A stretch of 64,000 nucleotides of DNA. Source: Bacillota bacterium. GTDB lineage: Bacteria; Bacillota; DSM-12270; Thermacetogeniales; Thermacetogeniaceae. The translations under genes were made by a program, and so were the position numbers. The stretch lies in NCBI GenBank assembly GCA_029907475.1, contig JARYLU010000012.1:1-64000 (forward strand). The letters run 5' to 3'. The stretch's first letter is position 1. Each line of letters opens with the position of its first letter. The notes beneath the pieces were generated by a model. It worked only from the letters and a program-made list of their open reading frames with translations. It was not told the DNA's origin and made no database searches. Shown here in pieces: positions 35,293-58,071 of the stretch.

Positions 35293-35330
35293 AACCCCCG
35301 GGGGTCGTCCCCGGGGGTTATCTTTTCTTC
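35293..35330 (+). terminator. Rho-independent terminator
   Basis: AACCCCCGGGG (35293-35303) / CCCCGGGGGTT (35309-35319), then ATCTTTTCTTC. It ends the SLH transcript. Confidence 0.85.
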
Positions 35331-35896: not shown

Positions 35897-35979
35897 CTAC
35901 CCCTGGGACTACCCGCCTGCCTCAAAAACTACCCCTCTTTTCCCTAAAACTACCCTTGTTTATCAGGGGCTTAGGTAGT
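35897..35979. promoter_or_regulatory. CTACCC-repeat cluster upstream of the stalk-domain gene
   Basis: CTACCC occurs at 35897, 35909, 35929 and 35950 (spacings 12, 20, 21), with an inverted GGTAGT at 35974. The part from 35924 to 35975 aligns closely with 38725-38778: AAAAACTACCCCT.TT, then (T)AAAACTA.CCTTG.T.ATCA. This is a candidate binding array for a regulator of the surface locus. Confidence 0.55.
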
Positions 35980-36039
35980 AATTTATAGTTGAATTTAATG
36001 ATTTAGGAGCGAAAAGAACTTTATTGGGAGGTCGTTTTC

Positions 36040-36870
36040 ATGGCGGGCAAAAGAATTTCTTTGGGGATGTGGAGCTGCTGCCTGATTTTTCTGTTTTTCC
36101 TGGCTTTCTGGTTGCGTGGGGCTTGGGGAGTTGCTGTTTCGCCTCCGGTAGGCGTTTACCTTAATGAACAGCAGCTTTGGTTTGACCAGCCCCCGGTGCT
36201 GGAGGGCGGAAGAGTGCTGGTTCCCTTGCGGGTTATCTTTGAGGCCCTCGGCGCCTCCGTTACCTATGACCCCGCGGCGAAAAAGATCACTGCCGTGCGC
36301 GGACAGGACCAGATAATCCTCACTGTTGGCAGCCTGAGCGCTTTCAAGAACGACGCTCTCGTGAAGCTTGATGTACCGCCCAGGATCGTCGGCGGGCGAA
36401 CCCTCGTGCCCTTGCGTTTTGTTTCAGAGGCGCTGGGCTGCGAGGTGGATTGGAATGGTGCGGCGAGAAAGGTGAGCATCAAGGCTCCCGGATTGGGAGG
36501 ACCAGAGCCTCCTGTTTTTAAGGATCCCCTGGCTGACCAGTACTTTGAGCGGGTAGTTTTATCAAAGCTCATCATGGGAGCGCAGGGACCGGCAGGTGTT
36601 GTGCCTGGTTCGGTCTTTACACCTGCTGACAATCTGAATATCGACTTCACCGTGCGTGCTGCCGCGCCTCTCTCGCTTGAGTTGACGCGGCGGGTTGTGG
36701 GAGACGAAACCAACCGGATTATTTTTGAGGATTCGGTAACCGTCAACCGCCCTGGGGGCAACGGCTTTAGCTTCCCCAATCCCGGGACGCCGGGGCGTTA
36801 CCGGTTTGAGGTTTGTTGCGGCGGAAAACTTGTCCTCAGCCTGCCCTTCGTGATCGAAAACAGAGGGTGA
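36040..36870 (+). CDS. Stalk-domain (copper amine oxidase N-terminal) surface protein
   Basis: A 276-residue protein. The signal peptide is MAGKRISLGMWSCCLIFLFF and on. Residues 40-155 hold two halves of the stalk domain (GGRVLVPLRVIFEALGASVT; GGRTLVPLRFVSEALGCEVD with WNGAARKVSIK). The C-terminal 110 residues form a beta domain (NLNIDFTVRAAAPLSLELTR) of unknown type. Despite the domain name such proteins are not oxidases but surface or wall modules in Firmicutes. It resembles the broken tails at 1323, 3815 and 9134. GGGAGG is 10 bases before ATG 36040. Confidence 0.8.
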   Translation: MAGKRISLGMWSCCLIFLFFLAFWLRGAWGVAVSPPVGVYLNEQQLWFDQPPVLEGGRVLVPLRVIFEALGASVTYDPAAKKITAVRGQDQIILTVGSLSAFKNDALVKLDVPPRIVGGRTLVPLRFVSEALGCEVDWNGAARKVSIKAPGLGGPEPPVFKDPLADQYFERVVLSKLIMGAQGPAGVVPGSVFTPADNLNIDFTVRAAAPLSLELTRRVVGDETNRIIFEDSVTVNRPGGNGFSFPNPGTPGRYRFEVCCGGKLVLSLPFVIENRG

Positions 36871-37037
36871 GAGCAAGACCCTTGTGGCCGGACGGGCGGG
36901 GACCGGGGTGCGCCGCGGGATCACTTTGCCCGGTTGCCGTCACTCATTAGCTGTCTGGCTTTAACGCGACGGCAATCAGGGTGCAGAGCGACGGCAAGAA
37001 CCCGCAGGAGCGGCCCGCGCATGTTGAAGCCAATTTC

Positions 37038-38564
37038 TCATTCTTGCTCTCCGGAGGGATCCTGGAGGGTGGGAGCTTTTTGGGATGGCGGTTCGGGCGG
37101 CGGCGTGCCGTCCCGGGTGGGAGGGGGAAGGGCCGGCGCCGCTTGGGGCACCGCTCCGGTGATCTCGGAAGTGATTCCGAAAGCGGATGCAAAGCGGCTG
37201 CAGAACTCCTTCCGGGTCTGGCAGTCGCTTTTTCTCAAGATGTTGCGGACGTGAAACTTTACCGTGTTGGGCGAGATGAACAGGGTGCTGGCAATCACCC
37301 GGTCCGGACACCCCGCAAGGAGGAGCTCGATCACCTTTTGCTCTGCCGGGGTGAATTGCGGCCCGGGCTGCGTCCCGGCCGGGAGTCCGGATTCTTCTCC
37401 TCTTTTTTCTTGCGCTCTAACGGTTTTTGGGGAAACCAAGGGGTTAGCTTGGAGGCTGGAGGTTTGGCGGGAAGGAAAGAGCTCGTCCCGGGATAAGCCC
37501 CCGGTCAGCAGGGGAATGAGACAGAAAAGGATTGCCGCGCCGATGATTCCGGCTAGGCCAGAATTCCCTGCGCTGATCAGCCCACAGTCCCAGAGCAGCC
37601 CTGTGAAACCGATCACAAAAACGTTCCAGGCCAGACCCCAGGCGAAGGGGGTCATGCTCCCCGTTTGCCGGGTGAGCTGGCAGAGGCTCAGCCAGTAGTA
37701 CAGGTCGGCTCCGGCGAGCCCGATCATTACTCCTGCATAGGCCGGAAGGACAAGAAAAAGGCTTTTTGAACCCGTTGCCCACAGGCTGAAGCCCAAGCCG
37801 AGGAGACCTAAGGACCAGGGGATCAGCGTCAGACGCCCGACGCACCTCGCAAAAAAGGCTAAAGGGGCCACCGCGATGATGTAGGGCCAGGCCCCCAGGG
37901 AGGCGCCTGCCGGGGAGGCGTTGACGGTCGGAGTCAGGGCGCGGTAAACCAGCCCCCCGCCTGCATAGGCGGCCAGGGCGAAGAGAAGTAGGGAAAACCA
38001 GTCATCCTCGCTTCTGTCGGACCGAAAAGAACCGAACCGGGGTTTAACGGAAAGGCGGCTGAGCAGAAAGAAGCTCAGGCCGCAGAGAACACTGAGAAGA
38101 AAGGCATAAATTTTCAAGAATGGCAGCGGTATGCCGGGCAGGTTCGCGCCCTGGAGCAGGATATTGCTTCCAGCCATCGTCAGCCCCAGGGGAAGGAGGG
38201 GTTCGGACAGGTCTGCGAGCCGTTGCACCCAGGTGAGCACCAGAAACGCTGCTCCGATTCCGAGCACGATAAAGTATCCCGTGCCCAGAAAGGAAGGGAG
38301 CGGGGAGCAAGCTCCTGTCGCTCCGGCGGCCAGGATAAAAATAACCATCAGGGGCGGGAGCCATTTTGCTCCAAACCATTTCTGGTACCAGGGCCCGAGG
38401 ACGAGACCTGCCGCGTGGCTGAAGGCGAAGGTGTGACCGTACCAGACACCCGCTTCAGGGTAGAAGCGAAAAAGAAGCGGCCCGTAAAAAGGCATCGTCA
38501 AGAGCCAGGCAAAGATCCCGGCTCCTGCAAGACCGATCCGCCAGGGTGAAGATCCTCTCTCCAA
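37038..38564 (-). CDS. LuxR-type regulator with a 12-helix membrane domain
   Basis: A 508-residue protein. Residues 1-370 are hydrophobic with about 12 helices (IGLAGAGIFAWLLTMPFYGP; AAGLVLGPWYQKWFGAKWLP; GLLGLGFSLWATGSKSLFLV), like an MFS transporter. Residues 395-455 are a LuxR HTH (FTPAEQKVIELLLAGCPDRV, IASTLFISPNTVKFHVRNIL, RKSDCQTRKEFCSRFA). The tail is Pro-rich. Transporter-like LuxR regulators occur in some Actinobacteria and Clostridia and are thought to sense something at the membrane. It lies between the stalk and giant SLH genes, and CTACCC arrays flank that pair, so control of both is a reasonable inference. Confidence 0.8.
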   Translation of the reverse strand: MERGSSPWRIGLAGAGIFAWLLTMPFYGPLLFRFYPEAGVWYGHTFAFSHAAGLVLGPWYQKWFGAKWLPPLMVIFILAAGATGACSPLPSFLGTGYFIVLGIGAAFLVLTWVQRLADLSEPLLPLGLTMAGSNILLQGANLPGIPLPFLKIYAFLLSVLCGLSFFLLSRLSVKPRFGSFRSDRSEDDWFSLLLFALAAYAGGGLVYRALTPTVNASPAGASLGAWPYIIAVAPLAFFARCVGRLTLIPWSLGLLGLGFSLWATGSKSLFLVLPAYAGVMIGLAGADLYYWLSLCQLTRQTGSMTPFAWGLAWNVFVIGFTGLLWDCGLISAGNSGLAGIIGAAILFCLIPLLTGGLSRDELFPSRQTSSLQANPLVSPKTVRAQEKRGEESGLPAGTQPGPQFTPAEQKVIELLLAGCPDRVIASTLFISPNTVKFHVRNILRKSDCQTRKEFCSRFASAFGITSEITGAVPQAAPALPPPTRDGTPPPEPPSQKAPTLQDPSGEQE

Positions 38565-38664
38565 GCAATCACTTCCTGAGCAAGTTGCTGTTCATGTTTC
38601 CTGTACGCAATAATTTCGCTAATCCCGCCAAAAATCCTGCAAATTTTTAGTCGATTCTCCTTTT

Positions 38665-38778
38665 CCACCCTCCTTGTACCTACTCCTTATACCTACCCTG
38701 GGACCACCCTTTAATTTTAAAATTAAAAACTACCCCTGTTGATTTAAAAACTATCCTTGCTCAATCAAGGACTTTTCA
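38665..38778. promoter_or_regulatory. CTACCC-repeat cluster between LuxR-type gene and giant SLH gene
   Basis: CCACCC/CTACYC elements at 38665, 38680, 38693, 38704, 38730 and 38751. The last two are within the 50-base stretch shared with 35924-35975. The cluster lies 100-215 bases upstream of the LuxR-type start codon on one side and about 310 bases from the giant SLH gene on the other. Confidence 0.55.
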
Positions 38779-38882
38779 TTTTTAATTAAAATTAAAAAAT
38801 TTTAGGAAAAAAGTACCTTCAGGTGACTACCATTGCCCAGTTTTTCATGACCCTAATTTTCAATTTATTCTCACAATTCTTA

Positions 38883-39088: not shown

Positions 39089-42000
39089 GTGTTGTTGTTT
39101 TTTGCTGCATCCAGAAAGAGGCATCTAAATGTCTTTCTGGTGATGTTTCTGTCCCTGGCACTGGTCTTTGGATGCGCGCCTCTGGGGTTCGCCCAGGAAG
39201 GCGAGGGTTCTCCTCCTCCACCGCCCGGAGGGGAAGGCGGGCCGCCGCCGCTCTATGTGCTCAAGTGCATGCCCGGGGGCGGTGCTGTCGGCATCTCTCC
39301 AGAACTTGACTTCATCCACCTGGAGTTTTCCGGGCCCTTAGATCCAGGCACCGTCAACACAAACAACATCACCCTCACGGGCCTCGTCTACGGAGGTGAG
39401 GTGTCCGTTCCTGGCAACGTCTACTACTCGGTCGTCGATAACGTCTACGAAGGCTCTGTCATCGGCCAGATCTACGAGGTTGAGTTCTTCCCGCTGGAAG
39501 ACCTGCTGCCCAACACAACCTACACCATCACCGTCAGCACCAGCGTCTACAGCGCCTCCGGAGTCCCGCTGGACGCGAGCCCGGATCCCGGCCTTCAGCC
39601 CTTTGTTGACACCTTCACCACCGGCGGAGGCGAGGGCGAACCGCCACCGCCTCACGTTGTCGAGTTTAACGGGACCCAAAGCATTCTCCGGGTTGTCTTT
39701 TCCGAGCCTATGCAGGCCGAAACCATTAATGACCAGAACGTCACCCTGATGGTGCATGAATCCAACGGAAACAAGGTGCCGGTTCCCGGAAGCGTCTCTT
39801 ATTCCGATTCCGAGGCTGATCAGTTCTACATGGCTGTATTCACTCCTAACGAGCCGCTTGCACCAAATACAACCTATACCTTTACTGTCAGCACTGCGGT
39901 GTACGGCACCTCCGGTTTGCCGCTTGACCAAGACCCGGATGAGCCCGGCTGCCAGCCATTTGTTTACACCTTCACCACCGGCGGAGGCGAAGGCGGGTCG
40001 CCGCCAGGAGGCGGCGGCGAACCGGGAGGGCCCGGAACACCAGAATTCCACGTTCTTGTCGACCTGTGCGACCCGCAGCTGCCTGCAATCGATCCCAACA
40101 ACCCGCCGGATCCCGACAATCCTCCCAAGCCGAACGGATGGGATCCCCAAAAGTTTGGCAGTGAGGGGATCAGGGTGGTTTTCAACAGGGGAATCACGAC
40201 TGTGGATCCCAATGCGATCGTCCTCAGAAACATCTTGACGCAGGAGCAGATCAGCATAACTGTATCCACCGCAACATATGCCGTTGAAAGTGATACGCTC
40301 GTGGTCACCGGAAACCCGCAGGACCTGGCCGATGGCCTGTACGGCCTCGAGATCAAGCCGGGTGCTCTCGCGGCCGGTGATTACAAGTGGAATTCCTGGT
40401 TCGTCGTTCCCTTCATCATCGGAGATTTCGACCCAGAAAAGGTTTTTGATGTGGTCTTCCACGACCCCGGAAACGGGGCGCACGTTGGCAAGAACCTGCC
40501 CGCCGTCGTAATCGGCTTCAGCAAACCCGTGAATACCGCACCCGAAAACCTGAGCAAAATTACGGTTACAACGGTTGCGAAAGAGAGCATCCAGACCCCC
40601 GTGCCTGGGGCGGTGGGAACCGATCCGAGCGCTGCCGAAGCCTTTGACGTCAAGTTCAAGCCCTACAACGGTTTCGCGCCCGGCAGCTACACCGTCACCG
40701 TTCCCGGAGGTTTCGCCAGCAAGGACGGCAAAACGTTGGGGAAGGACGTTACCTTTACGTTCACCGTTGAAGACTTTATCGGTGCCGTGCCTGGCCCGGG
40801 CCAGGAACTGCCGTTCCAGGTGATGGGTACGGGGCCGCGCAACGGTGAAACCGGCGTGCCCACCATGCTCGGGAGCATCTTCATCGGCTTCAGCAGGCCC
40901 TTGCAGGCAGAGGGAGAAGGCTACACCTATGCTTCCCGCGTCAGGCTGGAGCAGGTGGACAGTGTGGGCGCGGCCCTGCGCTCTCTCCCATTCACCGTGA
41001 GCCCCCAGGGAAACAGCTTGCAGTTGCTCCCGGGCGAGAAGCTGCTGCCCAATTCCAGGTACAGGATCACGGTAATAGGCGGCAGCAATGGAGTCAAGTC
41101 CGAGTCAGGCGAAACACTGGCGGTGGACTTCACCAGCACCTTCACGACGGGCGCCGAAGACGCGGCTCTTCGAAACGCGCTCTTCGGCATCTGCTGGTTC
41201 GAGCTGGAGCCGTACCAACCGGATCCCCAGAATCCTCAGCGGTATTACGTGCTGAGGGTCATGTTCACGAAGCCGGTTAATAAGGTCGAAGTGGAGAACC
41301 CCTCCAGCTATAAAATCTACACCGATGGAGCAGAGCGCAGCATTACCGAGATGTACGGTTACGACCCGATGTCGCAGACCGTCAAGATGCTGACGGACAT
41401 CCCCGTGCCGGAGTCCGGCCCCCATGCGCCGGGGTTCAGCGACTTCAAGGTCTCGGTTCCTGATCCGAACAGCATTCACGACGCCTTCGCGAACCAGCCT
41501 TTAAACAGCGATCCGTGGCTGAACGACCCGCAGAACAAGCAGCAGATCTCGCCCTACAACGAATACGACACGAAGTTCGACACGGATAACAGCCTGGGCG
41601 ATTTCGACAAGCTGGAAAACCACATCGTCGTGCCGTTCGGCGCCCCGGGGCAGCAAGCTGACTACTTCAACCAGATGAAGGAGATGGATCCTGCCAAGTT
41701 CGACCAGCTCCTCATGCTCCCGGCGAAGGTAGTTCCCATGGTCCCGTTTGCCGGCAAGACCGGCAGCTACTTGGTCGAAATCCCGACCACGCAGCAGCTT
41801 ACGACCGGCGACAAGATCGTGCTCGAGTTCCCCGGCGACTACGCGGGGGTGAGCGGGCTGCTGAGCGGCGCGGAGTTGGCAGACACCACCCTCCCGCCCA
41901 ACGATGACATCAACGGCCCCCAGGTCGGTGGAACCGTGACCATCAGCCGGTTGGACAAGACCCTCCTCAAGGACGGGAAGCTGGTCCTTGTTGTGAACGG

Positions 42001-45000
42001 CACCACCGAGCAGAATGACTACCTCCACATCCTGCTGGACGGCATCGCCAACCCCGTGCCGTCGGAGGGAACGGAATACATCGTAACCATCAAGACCCTT
42101 CAAACCGCCAGCGGCAAAACCCTGGAGACGATCTACGCGGCGCCGTTCTTCATCGCAAAAGCCTCGCAGCAGCTGGGCAGGATCACGGTTGAGCTCAAGG
42201 ACGCCGCTGCTCCCGGCACCACCTTGACCGGCACCGCTACCGTGAAGATTTCGAGCCCTGGCACCGGGGAGATGTCCTACGTCGCCGGCAACGGCACCGC
42301 AGAATTCAGCGGCCTCCCGCCGGGCGAGTACCTGGTCTGGGTAAGCGCGCCGCCCGAGGGATACACCGGCGGCGAGATGCCGGTCAGGGTTTGGGTTGCG
42401 CCCGGCGGAAGCGTTCCGGTCGTGCACTTCCTCAAAAAGAAGGATAACCTGGTCAAAGTAACGGTCAAGGCGACGGGGATACCCGGCGGGAAGCCGGCGG
42501 ACGTGTTTGCTTCGGGTGCGGGCGGATTCACGAAAGCAGTGGTGACCGGTAAAGGCTCCGACGAGGTTGCCGCCGATCTCTACCTCATGCCGGGCGAGTA
42601 CATGATCGGGGTGGGGCCTGCCGTCTCCAGCACCGGGGCCTTTCTGGATGGGTCGTGGATGGCGCCGCCTCCCGGCAGGTACAGTGTCAGCACGGACACT
42701 ACCATCACCATCAATGTTCCGATAAGCGGTTACTACATCAGGGTCAAGGTGCAGGATGGCTCAGGAAACGTCATTCCAGGCGCCAAGGTCTGGGCCTACA
42801 ACCCGGCCCGCGCCGACGTCATGGGAGCCTTCGGGCAGACGGGGACCGACGGCATGGCCCTCTTGAGGGTTGCGCCCGGCGAGTACAAGGTCGGCGCGGC
42901 CAAAGAAGGGATGCCTCCCGCCCCTGAAAAAGTCGTCACTGCCTCTGCTGACCCGGGTGCCAGCCCGGTTGTCTTTAACCTTAACAAGCCTGACATCAGG
43001 ATCGTGGGCAAGGTCTTGAAGTCCGATGGAGCGCCGGTGCCCAGCGCGCCGGTGTGGGCGCACGAAGCAGAGGGGCCCGGCTTCATCAAGACCATGACCG
43101 ACGCCCAGGGACAGTACACCCTGTTCGTGCGGGGTGAGACCACATGGGTTGTCGGCGCCTTCGTACCCGGCTTCGGAGACCTGCCTCCCCACACGATAGC
43201 AGTCGGAAGCACCGACATCATCAATACTTCCGGCAGCGGCGGAAGCATCCTGCAGGTGCCCGAAGAGACAGGGTTCGCAGCCGTCAGCGGCACCGTGTAC
43301 AGGGGCTCGATTCCGGCCGCCTTCGCCCATGTCTGGGCCGAGGGGCAAAACCCTCAGGGCGAGAAGTTTTTCAACGGCACCGCTGCGGACAGCCAGGGGC
43401 GCTACGTGCTGAAGGTCAAAAAGGGCTTGAGCTACACCTTGAGGTGCTTCGTGCCTGATTTCGGCGAGCTGCCTCCAGTCGACCTGGGCACTGTCACCGG
43501 TGACGTTCCCGATCGAAACTTTACCGCGGTCGAGAGGACCCTGACCATCCAGTTTGGCAGGGAAGCGACCGGAGTTGTGAGCGTGTCGCTCGCTCAGGGT
43601 GCAGCCGGGGGCGGCAGGAGCCAGGGCTTCGAGAACAAATCCGCCGTTCAGGTGAAGCTCCCCGCGGGGAGGTACAACGTTGATGTGTTCGTCAAAGGCA
43701 AGGGCGCGCTGCGCTACCCGCAGGCCGTTGACCTTACCCAAGGCGACCAGACGATATCCTTTGCGGAACAGCTGGGGCCGCAGCTCCTCACCTTGAAAGT
43801 GCAGCTCAAAGATGCGGCAGGCAGCAACTTCACCAGCCCGGCCTGGGTGCGGTTGGCGGAGGCCGCCCAGCAGGGCGCTGCAGTCAAGGTAATCGACGCC
43901 AGGATGACGGACGGCACAGGTCTCGCCACCTTCCAGGTGCCTTCCGGCGCCGGGGTCAGGGTCGCGGCGCGCCATCCGGAGTGCCAGCCTGCGGAGTCCG
44001 GGGTGATCACGGTCAGCTCGGATAACCAGACCGTGGAGCTCACCATGAACCTGATTGCCGCTCAGGCAACCTCCGTAAGCGGCATCGTAAGCACCAGCGA
44101 CGGAAAGCCCGTTGACAGCTTTTACGTCTGGGCGGCCGGTCCAGGCGGCGGCTGGGTGGGCGGCCAGTTCCAGCCGGCTGGCGGCAGGGCGGCAAGCGTC
44201 GAATACACTCTAACTCTCCCCGCTTCTTCTGAAGCGCGGTGGACCATTTACGCCAAGGCCAATGGCTACGAGACAACTCCCGCCAACGCGGTCACGGTGA
44301 CGCCGTCAACGAACCTGACGGACAAGGATCTCACCATCACCCCGATCGCCGGTTTCAACCGGGCTGCAGCGAGCGCCGCGGTTACTGCCAGTTCCGGCGG
44401 AGTCGTCAAGAACGCGGATGCAGGAGTGACGCTGGTGATCCCGGCGGGCGCCCTCGGAAGCGACAACACCACGGCCAGCGTCACCACCAAGAACGTCACC
44501 GACGTGCCTGCTACCGCTACTGCCGAACCTGTAGGCGCCGCCAAGGAGATCACTATCACAAAGGGAACAGGGCAGGTCGTGACCAATTTCAACGACCAGG
44601 TGGAGATTGCGGTGGAGTACTCGCCCGGAGGGCTCACCGACGATGTAATTGACGCCCTGCAGCTTTCCTACTGGGATGATACGGTCGGGGACTGGGTGGT
44701 CATCCCGTCCACCAACGACAAGACGAACCACGTGTTGCGGGGCTACACCAGCCACCTGACCAAATTTGCCGTAATCCAGCCTAAGACCGCCGCGCAGCAA
44801 GCGCCGAGCAGTGGGCAGGGCCAGCAGCAGCAACAGCAGCCTACTGGCGGCGGTGGCGGCGGGGGAGGCGGAGCAGCTACAGCTCCGCAGCCGGTGACCA
44901 GCACCGCTGGCGAGGCCAGGGTCCACCCGGCGGCCGGCGGAACCGTCGGACTGGGCAGCGAGGCCGCGCTGGTGATTCCGGCCGGTGTCCTGAAGGAAAG

Positions 45001-45889
45001 CGCCGAGGTCGAGGTCAAAGTGCAGAAGGTGAGCGCGCCCCCGGCGGCTCCGGCGGGGGCGAGGCTGGTGAGCGATGTCTTCGAGTTCAGCGTGGGCGGC
45101 AGGAGCAGCTACAGCTTCGCCAAACCGGTCACCATCAGCCTCGGCTTTAACCCGGCGGACCTTGCTCCGGATGAGCGGCCCGCAATCCACTATTTCGACG
45201 AGGCCTCCGGACAGTGGGTGAACATCGGCGGAACCGTCTCCGGCAGCACGATCACGGTCGAAGTGGATCACTTCACCAAATTCGCAGTGCTGGCGGTCAG
45301 GGAGGAAGCCAAGGAGGAAACCGGGCCCGCACCGGAGCCCGGAGTCAGGGTGCCGGCCGATGCCGCCGGGCACTGGGCCGCCGGCGCGATCACCGACCTG
45401 CTGGCGCGGGGCGTTGTCAAGGGCTATCCCGACGGGACCTTCAAGCCCGACAGGACCGTGACCCGGGCGGAGTTCGCCGTCCTCCTCGCAAGGGCCTTGG
45501 GCCTGACGATGGACGACGCCTCTTCCCTGAACTTTAAAGACGCAGCGGCCATCCCAGCCTGGGCGCGGGGCTACATTGCAGCTACGGTCAAGGATGGGAT
45601 CATCACCGGCTACACAGACGGTACCTTCAGAGCTGGCAGCAACATCACCAGGGCGGAGCTGGCTACGATGGTGGCCCGGGCCCTGAAAGCGCAGGTGCCG
45701 GTGAAGCCTGTGCTGAAGTTCTCCGATGCGGCAAAGATCCCGGGCTGGGCGGCAGGCTGCGTTGCCATTGCTGTCGAGCAGGGGATCATCTCGGGTTGCC
45801 CGGACAACACCTTCAGACCGGCGAACCGGGCAACAAGGGCCGAGTCCTGCACGATCATCGTGAGAATGCTTCAGGCCCGGGGCGAGTAG
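39089..45889 (+). CDS. Giant S-layer / surface protein (2266 residues) with three SLH domains
   Basis: A secreted protein of 2266 residues. A signal peptide (residues 1-35) is followed by at least five bacterial Ig-like (Big_5-type) domains between about 50 and 690 (LEFSGPLDPGTVNTNNITLT; VVFSEPMQAETINDQNVTLM; IGFSKPVNTAPENLSKITVT). A region with DNS-like Asp/Asn repeats comes next, then Cna-B/carboxypeptidase-regulatory-like repeats (about 1040-1700: GSGNVIPGAKVWAYNPARAD; KSDGAPVPSAPVWAHEAEGP). Two ZU5-like domains lie near 1770-1900 and 1945-2070, joined by a poly-Q/poly-G linker, and three SLH repeats from 2089 to the end. GTG 39089 has AAAGGGGGT. It is probably a main S-layer or adhesin-like protein held to the CsaB-modified wall polymer. 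Confidence 0.85.
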   Translation: MLLFFAASRKRHLNVFLVMFLSLALVFGCAPLGFAQEGEGSPPPPPGGEGGPPPLYVLKCMPGGGAVGISPELDFIHLEFSGPLDPGTVNTNNITLTGLVYGGEVSVPGNVYYSVVDNVYEGSVIGQIYEVEFFPLEDLLPNTTYTITVSTSVYSASGVPLDASPDPGLQPFVDTFTTGGGEGEPPPPHVVEFNGTQSILRVVFSEPMQAETINDQNVTLMVHESNGNKVPVPGSVSYSDSEADQFYMAVFTPNEPLAPNTTYTFTVSTAVYGTSGLPLDQDPDEPGCQPFVYTFTTGGGEGGSPPGGGGEPGGPGTPEFHVLVDLCDPQLPAIDPNNPPDPDNPPKPNGWDPQKFGSEGIRVVFNRGITTVDPNAIVLRNILTQEQISITVSTATYAVESDTLVVTGNPQDLADGLYGLEIKPGALAAGDYKWNSWFVVPFIIGDFDPEKVFDVVFHDPGNGAHVGKNLPAVVIGFSKPVNTAPENLSKITVTTVAKESIQTPVPGAVGTDPSAAEAFDVKFKPYNGFAPGSYTVTVPGGFASKDGKTLGKDVTFTFTVEDFIGAVPGPGQELPFQVMGTGPRNGETGVPTMLGSIFIGFSRPLQAEGEGYTYASRVRLEQVDSVGAALRSLPFTVSPQGNSLQLLPGEKLLPNSRYRITVIGGSNGVKSESGETLAVDFTSTFTTGAEDAALRNALFGICWFELEPYQPDPQNPQRYYVLRVMFTKPVNKVEVENPSSYKIYTDGAERSITEMYGYDPMSQTVKMLTDIPVPESGPHAPGFSDFKVSVPDPNSIHDAFANQPLNSDPWLNDPQNKQQISPYNEYDTKFDTDNSLGDFDKLENHIVVPFGAPGQQADYFNQMKEMDPAKFDQLLMLPAKVVPMVPFAGKTGSYLVEIPTTQQLTTGDKIVLEFPGDYAGVSGLLSGAELADTTLPPNDDINGPQVGGTVTISRLDKTLLKDGKLVLVVNGTTEQNDYLHILLDGIANPVPSEGTEYIVTIKTLQTASGKTLETIYAAPFFIAKASQQLGRITVELKDAAAPGTTLTGTATVKISSPGTGEMSYVAGNGTAEFSGLPPGEYLVWVSAPPEGYTGGEMPVRVWVAPGGSVPVVHFLKKKDNLVKVTVKATGIPGGKPADVFASGAGGFTKAVVTGKGSDEVAADLYLMPGEYMIGVGPAVSSTGAFLDGSWMAPPPGRYSVSTDTTITINVPISGYYIRVKVQDGSGNVIPGAKVWAYNPARADVMGAFGQTGTDGMALLRVAPGEYKVGAAKEGMPPAPEKVVTASADPGASPVVFNLNKPDIRIVGKVLKSDGAPVPSAPVWAHEAEGPGFIKTMTDAQGQYTLFVRGETTWVVGAFVPGFGDLPPHTIAVGSTDIINTSGSGGSILQVPEETGFAAVSGTVYRGSIPAAFAHVWAEGQNPQGEKFFNGTAADSQGRYVLKVKKGLSYTLRCFVPDFGELPPVDLGTVTGDVPDRNFTAVERTLTIQFGREATGVVSVSLAQGAAGGGRSQGFENKSAVQVKLPAGRYNVDVFVKGKGALRYPQAVDLTQGDQTISFAEQLGPQLLTLKVQLKDAAGSNFTSPAWVRLAEAAQQGAAVKVIDARMTDGTGLATFQVPSGAGVRVAARHPECQPAESGVITVSSDNQTVELTMNLIAAQATSVSGIVSTSDGKPVDSFYVWAAGPGGGWVGGQFQPAGGRAASVEYTLTLPASSEARWTIYAKANGYETTPANAVTVTPSTNLTDKDLTITPIAGFNRAAASAAVTASSGGVVKNADAGVTLVIPAGALGSDNTTASVTTKNVTDVPATATAEPVGAAKEITITKGTGQVVTNFNDQVEIAVEYSPGGLTDDVIDALQLSYWDDTVGDWVVIPSTNDKTNHVLRGYTSHLTKFAVIQPKTAAQQAPSSGQGQQQQQQPTGGGGGGGGGAATAPQPVTSTAGEARVHPAAGGTVGLGSEAALVIPAGVLKESAEVEVKVQKVSAPPAAPAGARLVSDVFEFSVGGRSSYSFAKPVTISLGFNPADLAPDERPAIHYFDEASGQWVNIGGTVSGSTITVEVDHFTKFAVLAVREEAKEETGPAPEPGVRVPADAAGHWAAGAITDLLARGVVKGYPDGTFKPDRTVTRAEFAVLLARALGLTMDDASSLNFKDAAAIPAWARGYIAATVKDGIITGYTDGTFRAGSNITRAELATMVARALKAQVPVKPVLKFSDAAKIPGWAAGCVAIAVEQGIISGCPDNTFRPANRATRAESCTIIVRMLQARGE

Positions 45890-46194: not shown

Positions 46195-48726
46195 ATGGGT
46201 AGGAGTAAATCTTCAGGGAGGAAGCGTAAGTCAGGATCGGGAGTGCTGGGTGCGTTCCACGGAAGGAGCAAAGAGTGCAGGGAAGGGCAGCCCCTGCTTA
46301 ATTTGGATCTGCGGTTTTTTGCCTTTCCCGCCCTGCTCTTTCTCCTTTTTTACCCGCCCTTCTTGCGCGGCCTCTTCTTTGCGCCGGAGCTTTTGCCGAC
46401 CCACATGATCACGGCCGGAGTCTTTCTCCTCTGCTGGTACGACCGGGTGCTGCGGCGCAAGGTGAAGTTTTTCGAGCACCCTCTGGACTACCTGCTCCTG
46501 GGACTGGCGGGAGCCTACCTCCTCTCCACCCTCGCGGCGGTGAATCTGCGGGGAGCGGTGGGAGAGGTGCTCAAGGCCTTCAACTACTTCCTCGTCTTCT
46601 GGATGGTTTCCCGGATGGCGGATACCGAACTGCACGCCCGCCGTATCCTCCAGGTACTCTTTTGGGCCGGCCTGGGCGTCGCCCTGGTCGGTTTGGGGGC
46701 CGCCGGGGGGTGGGTGCCGTACCCCGGCGCCTTTGCCCAGGGGGAGATCATGTCCACTTTTCAGTACCCCAACACCCTTGCGGTTTACCTCACGGTGACG
46801 GCGATCTTCGGCCTCGCTTTGCTTGTCCGGACGGGCAGTCTCTGGATGCAGTCGCTTTACGCCGCCGCCCTGCTCCCGATGCTGGTGGTGATCCTGTGTA
46901 CCATGTCGCGGGGAGGCTGGATGCTCTTTCCGGTCGCCCTGACCGCCTTCTGTATCGGGCTGCCCCGTTCTCACCGGGCGCGCGCCGTTTACACCCTGCT
47001 GGTCAACCTGGGGGCGGCCCTGCTGCTGGCGCGTTCCTTCGTCCCGCAGGTAATCCAGAACCTTCACCTCGGCAGGGGGGATCTCTTTCTCTTCCTGCCC
47101 GGGCTGGCGGGTGTTGTATTTGCCCAGGTTGCTTACCGGGCGGCTGTTTTCCTCCTCGACAGGTACGAGGTCGCCCCGCGAGTCAGAAGGTGGCTGGTGA
47201 CGAGCCTTGTCGTTTACCTGGGGTTTACCGGGATTTTCTACTATGCTTACGCAGCCCGCGCTCTTCCCTCGGTGGCTGCCCAGTTCGTCCCCGTTGCAGT
47301 CATCCGCCAGCTTGAGCGGGTAGACCGCTACGACCCGAGTTTCACCGAACGCATCCGCTTCGACCTGGATGCCCTGAAAATTGTGCGGGATCACCCGCTG
47401 CTGGGGACTGGAGGCGGGGGGTGGAACGCTTTGTACCACCGCTACCAGCCCTACCTCTACTGGACCACCGAGGTGCACAACCATTTTCTCCAGGTCTGGG
47501 TGGAGGCGGGAACCGTTGGGTTCTTGCTCTTTACTGCGGCCTGGATTTACTTCGGGCGGGGTCTTTACAGGGTCTGGCGGAAACTCCGGGAAGAAGGGAG
47601 CTTTGAAGATGAAGGGGAGGCGGCAGTCTGGGTCCTGCCGTGGGCGAACGGCGTTGCCGCCCTGGCGCTGGGGCTGCACAGCGCCTTCGACTTCAACCTT
47701 TCGCTCCCGGCCCTCGCCATCGTCCTCTGGGCGCTTTTCGGCCTCGGCCATGCCTTTGAACGGGAAATTGGCTTGTCTGACGAACCTCATGAAGAGTGGC
47801 GGGACTTCCCCGGCAAGAAAGGGAGAATCAAGAAGGGGCCCGGGGACCCGGAAAACCCCTCGGGCTGGCAGTTGGGACGGGCTGCGCTGGCCGGAACCCT
47901 CGCTGCGGTCCTGCTTTTTCTGCCTGCGGCCAATCTCTACGCAGCCGGAAAAACAGGCGCGGCCGGGGCGCGCGCCCTGCTTCGCCACGATTTTGAACAA
48001 GCCCGTGCGCTTTTCCGCCGCGCCCACTACCTTGACCCCTTTACCGCAAGCTACCTGGGCGACCTCGCCCAGGTCTACACGGTGCTCGGCCTGAAAGAGC
48101 GGGATCCCTCCCTGCTCCTGCAGGCGCGGGACTGCGCCGTTGCAGCGACGAAAAGGGAGCCTTACAACTGGCAGCTCCGCGCCGCTTTGATCACGACCTA
48201 CTTCCTGCAGGGGTTTGTCGATGAGCCGGTTCAGGAGGCGGAAGCCCTCCTGCGAGCGAACCCGTGGCTCACCGTTTCCTACGAAACCCTCGCCGGAGCT
48301 TACGTGACCGCGGCCCGGCAGCACCTGGCGCGGGGCGATCTGCAGCAGGCAGGGGAGCATCTGGTCAAAGCGCGGGAGCTTCCCGCTCTCCTAGACGCAA
48401 AGCGCGCCGCTGTCAAAGAGGAAATGCTCCCCCGCTGGAAGGGGGAACCCCTGGCCCCGAGTGCAGGTCTTTATCTCGCCTGCGGGCAGGCGGCTTACCT
48501 GTTGGGGGAATACGATGCGGCCAGGCGGGACCTCGCCCTGTCGGCTGCTGACCCCCGCCTCAAACCCGAGGCCGACCTGTGGCGGGCTGCGGCAGAGGCC
48601 CGCGGGGGGAACGAGGCCGAGGCGCGCCGCATTTTGCGCGACCTTGAAAAACAAGACCTTGAGAAACAAGCTGCCGCATTCAGGGATCGCTACGAGGAGG
48701 TTCTTTCCCTCGGCCCCGTGCGGTAG
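46195..48726 (+). CDS. O-antigen ligase/Wzy-like protein with TPR tail (paralogue 1)
   Basis: An 843-residue protein. After a basic N-terminus (about 30 residues) come about 12 membrane helices, with the Wzy_C loop KIVRDHPLLGTGGGGWNALY then TEVHNHFLQVWVEAGTVGFL, and a soluble C-terminal half of TPR-like helices (ALLRHDFEQARALFRRAHYL; AYVTAARQHLARGDLQQAGE; AAYLLGEYDAARRDLALSAA). It most likely polymerises surface polysaccharide outside the membrane. It heads the Wzz / kinase / phosphatase set and matches 54901-58071 closely in the loop motif. No strong Shine-Dalgarno precedes ATG 46195, so the start is uncertain. Confidence 0.8.
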   Translation: MGRSKSSGRKRKSGSGVLGAFHGRSKECREGQPLLNLDLRFFAFPALLFLLFYPPFLRGLFFAPELLPTHMITAGVFLLCWYDRVLRRKVKFFEHPLDYLLLGLAGAYLLSTLAAVNLRGAVGEVLKAFNYFLVFWMVSRMADTELHARRILQVLFWAGLGVALVGLGAAGGWVPYPGAFAQGEIMSTFQYPNTLAVYLTVTAIFGLALLVRTGSLWMQSLYAAALLPMLVVILCTMSRGGWMLFPVALTAFCIGLPRSHRARAVYTLLVNLGAALLLARSFVPQVIQNLHLGRGDLFLFLPGLAGVVFAQVAYRAAVFLLDRYEVAPRVRRWLVTSLVVYLGFTGIFYYAYAARALPSVAAQFVPVAVIRQLERVDRYDPSFTERIRFDLDALKIVRDHPLLGTGGGGWNALYHRYQPYLYWTTEVHNHFLQVWVEAGTVGFLLFTAAWIYFGRGLYRVWRKLREEGSFEDEGEAAVWVLPWANGVAALALGLHSAFDFNLSLPALAIVLWALFGLGHAFEREIGLSDEPHEEWRDFPGKKGRIKKGPGDPENPSGWQLGRAALAGTLAAVLLFLPAANLYAAGKTGAAGARALLRHDFEQARALFRRAHYLDPFTASYLGDLAQVYTVLGLKERDPSLLLQARDCAVAATKREPYNWQLRAALITTYFLQGFVDEPVQEAEALLRANPWLTVSYETLAGAYVTAARQHLARGDLQQAGEHLVKARELPALLDAKRAAVKEEMLPRWKGEPLAPSAGLYLACGQAAYLLGEYDAARRDLALSAADPRLKPEADLWRAAAEARGGNEAEARRILRDLEKQDLEKQAAAFRDRYEEVLSLGPVR

Positions 48727-54900: not shown

Positions 54901-57900
54901 ATGGCCAAAAAAAAGCACAAGCGCGCGAAACAGAGCAGGAAGGCAGCATCGGGCGGCGCGTCTTCCGGGGGCAGGCTGAAGCCCCAGAAGCCGGCCGGGG
55001 CGCAAAAAGCTGTGCAGCAGCGTCGGGCGCAGTCCGCTCAAAAGGGGAAGGTTGTTCCCATTGGCGAAAAGGGCAGGCGGGGGAAGGTGATTCCCCTTGA
55101 GACGGCGAGGGCTGCGGCCCAGGGTGCCTCGAAAAAGCGGTTTCGCTTCCTCTTCCCTGCCGGGGCGGTGCAGGGAATCAAAAAGATCCAGGAGGGCATC
55201 AGGCGGACGTGGCGGGAGCTGGGCATTCGCCTGCGCTTGAGCCATTCCCGCCGGAGCGCGGCTGCTCCCGGCAGGCAGGCTCCGTCCCTCCGAACCCGGC
55301 CCGCCCCGGGAGGCCGGCGCCTGCAGAGCGCGAAGGGTAAACGAAGCCTGCTTGCCGCCGCCGGAGCACGGTGGGACGCCCTCGGGAAGCGCTGGCCGGG
55401 GCTCCGGGCCGCCTCGGGGGTTGGGGCACTCCTGAAGCAGGCCGCCACCCCGGAAGGGATCGTGGCGGTATTGCTGGCCGTACTCCTCTTTTACCCCCCC
55501 TATTTCCGCGGCCTTTTCTTTGCGCGGGAGCTCCTTCCCACACACATGTTTACGGCCGTGATTTTTTCCCTCTTTGCTTTTTATAAAATCTCGAAGCGGG
55601 AGCTTGTCTTCTTCCGGCACCCGCTGGATTACGCCGTTTTCATCCTGCTGGGGTTCTACGTCGCCTCAAGTATCAACGCGTGGAACGCCCGTGGCGCCAT
55701 CGGGGCGGTTTTGAAGATGGCGAACTACGCCGCCGTCTACTGGCTGCTGGCTTTCAGCGTGCGCTCCTTGAACGCTGTGCAAAACTACCTGAAGGTCTAT
55801 TTTGCGAGCGGCACCGGGGTTGCCCTGCTTGGGCTCGGCGCCGCCTTCGGAACTTTCCACTACAGGGATGCCTTCGTCGGGGGGCGGATCTATTCCAGCC
55901 TCCAGTACCCAAACACGCTGGCCGCGTTTTTGACCGCCATCAACCTCTTCGGTCTCTACCTCGCGGCCGCCGCCCGGGGGCTGGGAGCGAGGGTCCTGCT
56001 GGCGGTGGGAAACTACCTCCTCTTTCTCACCTTCCTGGGGACGCAGTCCCGGGGCGCTTACCTCATCTACCCGGTCGGGCTCCTCATCCTCCTGGCCGGT
56101 TTGCCCGGCAGGGAGCGCTGGCGCGCCCTGGGAAATTTCGCGCTCCAGGTGCTGGCCGTCTTCGCTGTTGCCGGCAGGGTCATGGCGTGCACGGGAGGCG
56201 GGTCGGAGCTGGCGGGCTGGCTCTGGGCGCTGGCCGGGGCGGTGCTTGCGGCCCTTTTCCAGCTGGCGTGGGCCTCTCGCGAGCTCAAGGCCGCGCCCGG
56301 GCAGGCACCGAAGCAGGCAGCAGAAGCTCCCGCTGCAGGTGGCGTTCCCGCGGGGCGCAGGCGGCTCCGGCCCTGGGTACTTCCCGCTGCAGCCGTGCTG
56401 GCGCTTTTAATCCTCGCCGGCGGCGCTTTCGCCCTCCGGCAGGATCGGGGTTCAGAAACGGCCTTTGCCTCTAAGATCGTTCCCGCACAGTGGGTGGAGC
56501 GGGTTAAGAGCATCTCCCTCCATGAGAAGAACGCCCAGGAGCGCCTCCTCTGGAGCCTCGATGCATTCAAGATCATGACCTCCAGCCCTCTGAACGCCCT
56601 GGTCGGGACCGGGGGCGGGGGGTGGAACGCCCTTTACCACAGCTACCAGGACTACCTTTACTTCTCTACCGAAGTGCACAACCACTTCCTCCAGGTGGGA
56701 GTGGAAACCGGCTTCCCGGGCCTCCTCGCTTTTCTGGCCAGCTGGATTTTTTTCTGCGGCATCACCTGGCGCACCTTAAGATGCACCGGAGGCAGCATAC
56801 AGGCGGCTGCGGCTGCTCCTGAGCGGGCTGCGCGTGAGCGTGTCGCAGCGCAAAGGCAGGCTGTGCCCGGACCGGCGGCAGTGCCCTTTCAATCCCTGCC
56901 GCCTGATGCCGTGCGTGGTACGGCCTGGGCGATCTTCAGCGGCGCCCTCGCTTTGGGTCTCCATTCCATGATCGACTTCAACCTCTCCCTGGGGGCGGTT
57001 GCCCTTCTCCTCTGGGGACTCTTCGGACTCGGGCGGGGCCTGGCGCGCCTCGTTGACCCGGCGGGAGACGGTACCCCCGGCGTGCCTGCAGCGGCTCAGG
57101 CCTCCAGGCCGGCCTCGAGGCGGAACCGGAAACCCAAACGCTTCCGGCTTTCCCCGGCGCTCCAGGGGGTTCTTGTCGGTACCGTTGCCGCTGTGCTCTT
57201 CCTCACCTCTTTAAGCCTCCTTCTGGGCGAGAAGTATGCCCTTGCCGCGTCGCGTGCTCTTAAAAACCAGGACGTGCAGGGAGCTGTCAGCAATCTTGAG
57301 CAGGCCCTGGAGCACGACCCCTGGACCACCTCCTACCGCGCCGACCTGGCGCAAATCTATCTCTTCCAGGGTGAGCAAAACCGGGAGGGGAACCTTTTGC
57401 AGAAAGGGCGCGAGCTGCTGGACGAGGCGGTGAAGGCGAACCGGGGCGACCCTCAACTGCGGGTGATGCGCGCCCGCGCCCTCTTCAGCACCGGCCGGCT
57501 GGAAGAGGGGATCAGAGAGCTGGAGGAGGCTGTCGCCCTGATGCCGTTCGGCCAGTCTTATTACGAGAGCCTGGCCACCGGCTATCTGAGCGCGGGGCGC
57601 TTCCTGCTGGAACAGGCGGGGCAGTTGGAGCAGGCCGGGCAAGAGGCGCCTTTTAAAGAGCAGCGGGACCCGGCAGAGCTGAAGGAGCAGGGGCGCGCCT
57701 TTTTGAAAAAAGCCCTCGATGTACCGGAGCGGATCGAAAAGAAAATGGCCGCCGTCCCGGAAAAACATAAGCAGTACTGGGGGCGGGGACCTCTCCTTGC
57801 GGCATCTCCCCTGATCTACCTCCAGGCGGGGGAAGCCGCTGCCCTGCTGGGGCGCTGGACGCAGGCCGATACTTACCTTGCGGCCGCCGCCGGGGACCCC

Positions 57901-58071
57901 AATCTGAAGCCGGAGGCCATCCTCTGGCGCGGCCTCGCTCTGAAAGAACGGGACCGCGCGGAGGAGGGGGAGGAACTGGTCGCCGGAGCCCTGAAGCTGA
58001 AGCCCGACCTCGCAGAGGAGCAGGAGAGGATCGAGGCGCTCCTCGGGGCAACTTCAAGGCGGCCCTCCTGA
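54901..58071 (+). CDS. O-antigen ligase/Wzy-like protein with TPR tail (paralogue 2)
   Basis: A 1056-residue protein. Residues 1-190 are a very basic, disordered N-terminal extension (KKKHKRAKQSRKAASGGASS; LRLSHSRRSAAAPGRQAPSL) that is absent from paralogue 1. About 12 membrane helices follow, with LVGTGGGGWNALYHSYQDYL and TEVHNHFLQVGVETGFPGLL in the Wzy_C loop. From about residue 770 comes a TPR domain (ASRALKNQDVQGAVSNLEQA; RALFSTGRLEEGIRELEEAV; AAALLGRWTQADTYLAAAAG). GGGGGG precedes ATG 54901. It is probably a second polymerase or ligase for surface glycan. The basic N-terminus may contact the inner leaflet, RNA or the BY-kinase complex. Confidence 0.8.
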   Translation: MAKKKHKRAKQSRKAASGGASSGGRLKPQKPAGAQKAVQQRRAQSAQKGKVVPIGEKGRRGKVIPLETARAAAQGASKKRFRFLFPAGAVQGIKKIQEGIRRTWRELGIRLRLSHSRRSAAAPGRQAPSLRTRPAPGGRRLQSAKGKRSLLAAAGARWDALGKRWPGLRAASGVGALLKQAATPEGIVAVLLAVLLFYPPYFRGLFFARELLPTHMFTAVIFSLFAFYKISKRELVFFRHPLDYAVFILLGFYVASSINAWNARGAIGAVLKMANYAAVYWLLAFSVRSLNAVQNYLKVYFASGTGVALLGLGAAFGTFHYRDAFVGGRIYSSLQYPNTLAAFLTAINLFGLYLAAAARGLGARVLLAVGNYLLFLTFLGTQSRGAYLIYPVGLLILLAGLPGRERWRALGNFALQVLAVFAVAGRVMACTGGGSELAGWLWALAGAVLAALFQLAWASRELKAAPGQAPKQAAEAPAAGGVPAGRRRLRPWVLPAAAVLALLILAGGAFALRQDRGSETAFASKIVPAQWVERVKSISLHEKNAQERLLWSLDAFKIMTSSPLNALVGTGGGGWNALYHSYQDYLYFSTEVHNHFLQVGVETGFPGLLAFLASWIFFCGITWRTLRCTGGSIQAAAAAPERAARERVAAQRQAVPGPAAVPFQSLPPDAVRGTAWAIFSGALALGLHSMIDFNLSLGAVALLLWGLFGLGRGLARLVDPAGDGTPGVPAAAQASRPASRRNRKPKRFRLSPALQGVLVGTVAAVLFLTSLSLLLGEKYALAASRALKNQDVQGAVSNLEQALEHDPWTTSYRADLAQIYLFQGEQNREGNLLQKGRELLDEAVKANRGDPQLRVMRARALFSTGRLEEGIRELEEAVALMPFGQSYYESLATGYLSAGRFLLEQAGQLEQAGQEAPFKEQRDPAELKEQGRAFLKKALDVPERIEKKMAAVPEKHKQYWGRGPLLAASPLIYLQAGEAAALLGRWTQADTYLAAAAGDPNLKPEAILWRGLALKERDRAEEGEELVAGALKLKPDLAEEQERIEALLGATSRRPS

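Follow-up and report, generated by a model that had tools for sequence, protein, structure and literature searches.

A gene for a membrane-bound LuxR-type protein lies between two similar repeat arrays in the 64,000-nucleotide stretch of Bacillota DNA analysed here (the window), raising the question of whether these arrays are sites for the protein encoded between them. A sequence-only reading had proposed that the shared motif is the signature of a LuxR-type regulator of surface-layer genes. From the window, its source genome and about 120 relatives, we judge it likely that both arrays, here called A and B, are operators of this protein, a prediction drawn from sequence comparison.

A paired array occurs twice in the genome

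The two arrays are made up of CTACCC and closely related elements.

35897..35978, + strand: array A, proposed regulator sites 5' of the stalk-domain gene (CTACCC at 35897, 35909, 35929 and 35950)
38665..38756, + strand: array B (CCACCC 38665, CTACTC 38680, CTACCC 38693, CCACCC 38704, CTACCC 38730, CTATCC 38751)
38754..38771, no strand assigned: perfect 6-bp dyad TCCTTG-N6-CAAGGA at the end of array B

The array A core (35924-35975) reads AAAAACTACCCCT...TAAAACTACCCTTG-TTT-ATCAGGGGCTT and that of array B (38725-38778) reads AAAAACTACCCCT...AAAAACTATCCTTG-CTCA-ATCAAGGACTT, bearing out the earlier claim of a stretch of about 50 bases present in two copies. The additional CYACCC elements said to surround both copies were also found, as listed above. 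The core spacing, first put at 18-21 bases, needs correcting: the distance between the two CTAYCC cores is exactly 21 bp in array A (35929/35950) and in array B (38730/38751). CTACCC elements in array A are spaced by 12, 20 and 21 bp, with an inverted GGTAG at 35974-35978, and elements in array B, which occupies the divergent LuxR/SLH intergenic region, by 15, 13, 11, 26 and 21 bp. The array A counterpart of the array B dyad is imperfect (CCCTTG-N5-CAGGGG). Identity between the two 50-bp stretches, aligned over their length, is about 70%. When 1,956 windows were scored against copy A, copy B gave the highest local match (22.5, with 15.0 for the next and 11.1 +/- 2.0 for shuffled B); the similarity ends at the array and its AT-rich flank.

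We scanned the source genome (3.01 Mb, 99.65% complete) for the paired pattern AAAACTAYCCYT-N10-AAACTAYCC and found two occurrences, both at arrays A and B. With up to three mismatches allowed, this 31-bp pattern gave two matches in the window against 0.00 expected from 100 dinucleotide shuffles, and only two in the whole genome against one for a reversed-pattern control. The single element AAACTACCC is near chance genome-wide (25 versus 16 in the control) and uninformative, so the tandem form alone is special. The genome-wide scan proposed as a check therefore finds the paired array not scattered but confined to its two gene-start copies, and by this pattern the regulon in the source genome appears to consist of these two sites only.

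The arrays lie at promoter-like sites of surface-protein genes

The gene context is as the sequence-only reading described it, with one copy 5' of a stalk-domain gene and the other between the LuxR-type gene and a gene for a 2266-residue SLH protein.

35960..35989, + strand: promoter-like TTATCA-18-TATAGT directly 3' of array A (consensus match only)
36040..36870, + strand: stalk-domain gene, 276 aa, Cu_amine_oxidN1, secreted, proposed target of array A (Pfam PF07833, E 5.3e-36)
38714..38742, - strand: promoter-like TCAACA-17-TAAAAT of the LuxR-type gene, overlapping array B (consensus match only)
38787..38792, + strand: -10-like TAAAAT assigned to the SLH gene, 36 bp beyond the first base of the last CTAYCC (consensus match only)
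39089..45889, + strand: giant SLH surface protein, 2266 aa, proposed target of array B (Pfam SLH x3, Big_5, CarboxypepD_reg)

Array A ends 62 bp from the start of the stalk-domain gene, and the -10-like hexamer that follows it begins 34 bp beyond the first base of its last CTACCC. The stalk (Cu_amine_oxidN1) domain has 28 protein matches in the source genome, among which only the gene at 36040 can have the array upstream, because the paired array is absent elsewhere outside array B. The promoter-like site overlapping array B makes autoregulation of the LuxR-type gene possible.

Two other features of the neighbourhood were recorded. A strong bidirectional terminator-like hairpin, AACCCCCGGGG-GTCGT-CCCCGGGGGTT, stands at 35293-35319 behind a gene for a 618-residue SLH protein. 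Two related O-antigen-ligase-like (Wzy_C) genes, at 46195-48726 and 54901-58071, form part of one exopolysaccharide-type cluster adjoining the SLH gene.

The regulator joins an MFS-fold membrane domain to a NarL-type helix-turn-helix

37038..38564, - strand: MFS-fold 12-helix membrane domain plus LuxR/GerE HTH, 508 aa, proposed binder of both arrays (Pfam, AlphaFold2, fold search)
37230..37271, - strand: recognition helix, residues 432-445 (NarL model alignment, residues 403-453 on 155-205)

Pfam gave GerE only (PF00196, E 3.9e-10, residues 403-451), with no receiver domain, that is, no N-terminal phosphoacceptor. An AlphaFold2 model (mean pLDDT 81.6) places a helical bundle at residues 7-362, whose fold matches in the PDB are MFS transporters (TM-score to target 0.53-0.70); a weak sequence match to FLVCR transporters agrees with this fold. 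The HTH piece alone found no match in a PDB sequence search at 1e-5, and a profile search returned NarL, VpsT, VraR and others. In NarL, Lys188, Val189 and Lys192 contact bases; in the model alignment Phe437 of the window protein (codon 37254-37256) falls on Val189.

The half-site tracks one recognition-helix residue across relatives

An ortholog or orthologous cassette was absent from the same genus or family, a scan of genome contigs with the window protein alone gave no relative, and the full-family alignment held no stretch conserved enough for scanning. A membrane-domain profile placed the family in 49 of 398 genomes of the phylum, a contig scan yielded 80 named loci, and a profile of the window-like subfamily detected the family in 16 of 113 genomes of another class. 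The resulting comparative set of about 120 relatives comprised 47 loci on which a rule was framed, 65 new non-duplicate loci and a third, window-like set. Open reading frames were called by a simple script, and SLH proteins with a home-made profile, eight of them, beside or near relatives' regulators, being confirmed by Pfam. The paired pattern with mismatches stayed at chance level in the 120 relatives, forward and reverse matches together being about as frequent as in the reversed control.

Among the 47 loci, the top 6-mer of regulator-adjacent against other intergenic DNA was TCACCC/GGGTGA (47 versus 24, p 3e-6); YYACCC elements taken together were twice as frequent beside the regulator. 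Inspection of these loci suggested that Phe or Tyr in the helix motif 'NTVKxH' goes with CTACCC and Thr or Ser with TCACCC, a rule set down before the 65 new loci were examined. In that new set, CTACCC stood beside 22 of 25 aromatic versus 2 of 40 Thr/Ser regulators (p=4.5e-12), with site counts of 48:17 and 2:49, respectively. The third set gave CTACCC in four of six aromatic loci with usable flanks, and the four Thr/Ser members that were counted, L300, L301, L307 and L308, had none; pooled, the figures are 34 of 43 aromatic versus 7 of 73 Thr/Ser regulators. CTACCC density in aromatic loci was 3.43 per kb beside the regulator versus 0.21 in other intergenic DNA, a 16-fold difference, whereas in Thr/Ser loci it was not raised (0.18 versus 0.35 per kb). 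The window fits the rule, with Phe437 and CTACCC in both arrays. Exceptions among aromatic relatives include L299 and L302, which lack CTACCC (L302 has CCACCC instead), and the aromatic class also carries some TCACCC (1.29 versus 0.46 per kb).

The association is partly due to shared ancestry: residue class changed about eight times on the tree, with three well-supported independent pairs, and the informative supported pairs nearly always ran in the predicted direction while being too few for significance. Two classes drawn post hoc extend the pattern, with TCATAC/TCATCC half-sites in the same dyad frame for KTHA helices and CTGTAC-N4-GTACAG for ERTVKYH helices (two loci). The latter dyad, at L228 and L230, sits 3' of the regulator gene where others have CTACCC or TCACCC. 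STVKTH-type loci (L155, L161, L258, L259, L261, L263, L266, L272, L307 and L308) carry TCATAC-N4-GTATGA dyads after the gene and TCATCC-like sites about 34 bp beyond them.

Most relatives share a two-dyad frame that the window lacks

Most relatives have two dyads 3' of the regulator gene, 31-36 bp apart (about 34) and of the form CTACCC-N-GGGTAG or TCACCC-N-GGGTGA, as in GCCCCTACCCGAAAAAGGTAGGGGC then AAACTACCCGGTCGGGTGA for a Tyr-type locus and GCCCCTCACCCGAAAAGGTGAGGGGC then AAATCACCCGTTTTGGGTGA for a Thr-type one. The half-site change affects the leading arm of the second dyad and, because the first dyad is also a hairpin, both of its stem arms. In 20 of 24 loci a -10-like hexamer starts exactly 39 bp beyond the point at which the second site begins, a distance noticed post hoc, which puts the second dyad at about -43; this would be a typical activator position. 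First dyads that double as terminator hairpins may inflate the count of GC-rich repeats. Such doubling, as a terminator-like hairpin with a T-run 15-60 bp past the regulator stop, was seen in L120, L160, L195-L218 and many other loci.

The usual first gene 3' of the operator encodes a membrane protein of about 177 residues (L120:5324-5881, L155:8889-9422, L308:9557-10090 and others), with 40 members among the collected neighbours; the one scanned, from L120, had no Pfam match.

The window differs from this frame: in place of two dyads and the 39-bp layout, its elements are repeated in direct orientation at intervals of 11-13, 20-21 and 26 bp, and the -10-like hexamers stand at +34 and +36. In a tree built without the HTH, the window protein pairs with that of L188, a locus with CTACCC/CCACCC direct repeats spaced by 11-12 bp; on its divergent side, past a small ORF, lies a giant SLH gene. 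L296 has direct repeats at 13 bp, and in L298 and L303 (CTACCC) and in L302 (CCACCC) sites occupy the DNA that separates the regulator from a divergent SLH gene. The comparison with related species thus upholds CTACCC beside relatives' regulators, the nearest of them often divergent to an SLH gene, but the 21-bp spacing is not family-wide. Subfamily sites stand mostly 40-190 bp from the regulator start, facing the regulator gene in L298, L303 and L296 and the surface gene in the window and L188, so that autoregulation and control of the SLH gene are equally plausible.

Weighing the explanations

The arrays might be sites of another regulator, such as a two-component response regulator encoded elsewhere, with the LuxR-type neighbour incidental. 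NarL-type heptamers (TACYYMT) do resemble TACCCCT, and the source genome encodes other LuxR-type HTH genes. That genome, however, holds no further tandem array, and over 120 loci the class of motif varies with the recognition helix of the MFS-LuxR protein next to it, which a third protein would not explain; we consider this improbable.

Still less credible is a promoter segment duplicated and moved along with a surface-protein gene, with no dedicated regulator: the identity between the copies does run along their length, but it is limited to the array and AT-rich flank, and regulators of this type in other families also have CTACCC arrays next to them. We give equally little credence to repeats that work at the RNA level, as part of a leader or terminator, and not as sites on DNA, for although one pair of the TCCTTG/CAAGGA dyad is changed on both sides between copies, the window holds terminator-like matches and relatives have hairpins with T-runs (their first dyad among them), an Rfam scan of the window gave no match, the arrays lie 5' of promoter-like sites, the relatives' second dyad keeps a fixed distance from its -10-like hexamer, and base pairing in RNA would not vary in step with an HTH residue.

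Our preferred explanation remains that the arrays are operators of the LuxR-type protein. The paired array occurs only twice in the genome, both times at the start of genes flanking the regulator. The proposal that the motif marks a LuxR-type surface-layer regulator is in turn supported by the comparative evidence: the 16-fold CTACCC density, the rule that held on 65 new loci and the nearest relatives divergent to SLH genes. The protein would be a one-component transcription factor with its MFS-type membrane bundle as sensor. Its NarL-type HTH would read the half-site CTACCC, an aromatic residue at the Val189-equivalent position favouring CTACCC where Thr would read TCACCC. Direct repeats one or two helical turns apart would align several HTH copies just 5' of the polymerase site, and from such phased repeats these membrane-tethered domains could bring polymerase to the promoters of the stalk and SLH genes. 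The stalk-domain gene would answer to array A; array B would serve the giant SLH gene and, probably, the gene of the regulator as well. Physical binding of the protein to the arrays is deduced from the sequence pattern; a ligand of the MFS sensor is presumed, as is the assignment of array B between its divergent genes.

We lean, by a small measure, towards a wider reading in which MFS-fold LuxR proteins of anaerobic Firmicutes share a common operator frame, one helix position (the NarL Val189 equivalent) setting the half-site: CTACCC for Phe/Tyr, TCACCC for Thr/Ser, and TCATAC or CTGTAC for other helix variants. The window's subfamily would have turned the dyad into direct-repeat arrays, through which a ligand perceived by the MFS sensor would govern giant S-layer proteins.

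Comparison with known systems

The half-sites of NarL/FixJ regulators are short and asymmetric and can occur as either direct or inverted repeats. The window protein shares their GerE-type HTH domain and the helix position of NarL Val189 but has a membrane MFS sensor in place of the receiver domain. CadC and ToxR act on local promoters through a membrane-tethered DNA-binding domain, theirs being a winged helix on a single TM helix. They are membrane-bound one-component regulators, as the window protein would be, the latter with 12 MFS-fold helices and a GerE HTH.

In these bacteria the regulation of S-layer proteins is poorly known, and the proposed system would tie a transporter-like membrane sensor directly to their control. 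TM-LuxR regulators are numerous, and the literature searched gave no DNA site for them; with a predicted operator and a specificity rule that turns on one residue, their targets could be read from sequence. The protein architecture itself is already known (PMC9734109) from the 10-12-TM LuxR regulators of Coriobacteriia, DadR (from Eggerthella), HcdR and CadR (Dong et al. 2022, PMC9734109), a family defined by architecture, with less than 20% identity between N-terminal domains (PMC9734109). A term search of that paper's text found no operator reported, and the literature searched held no published operator for the family and no instance of this architecture in Firmicutes. DadR, HcdR and CadR were shown to activate genes next to their own when a specific substrate is present (PMC9734109), and by this analogy activation rather than repression would be the mode at arrays A and B. 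Compared by architecture, the window protein resembles the DadR-like regulators in its N-terminal 12-helix membrane domain, its C-terminal LuxR HTH and a gene that adjoins its targets (here, proposed ones), but their neighbours are catechol dehydroxylases and other enzymes, whereas those in the window are SLH and stalk surface proteins.
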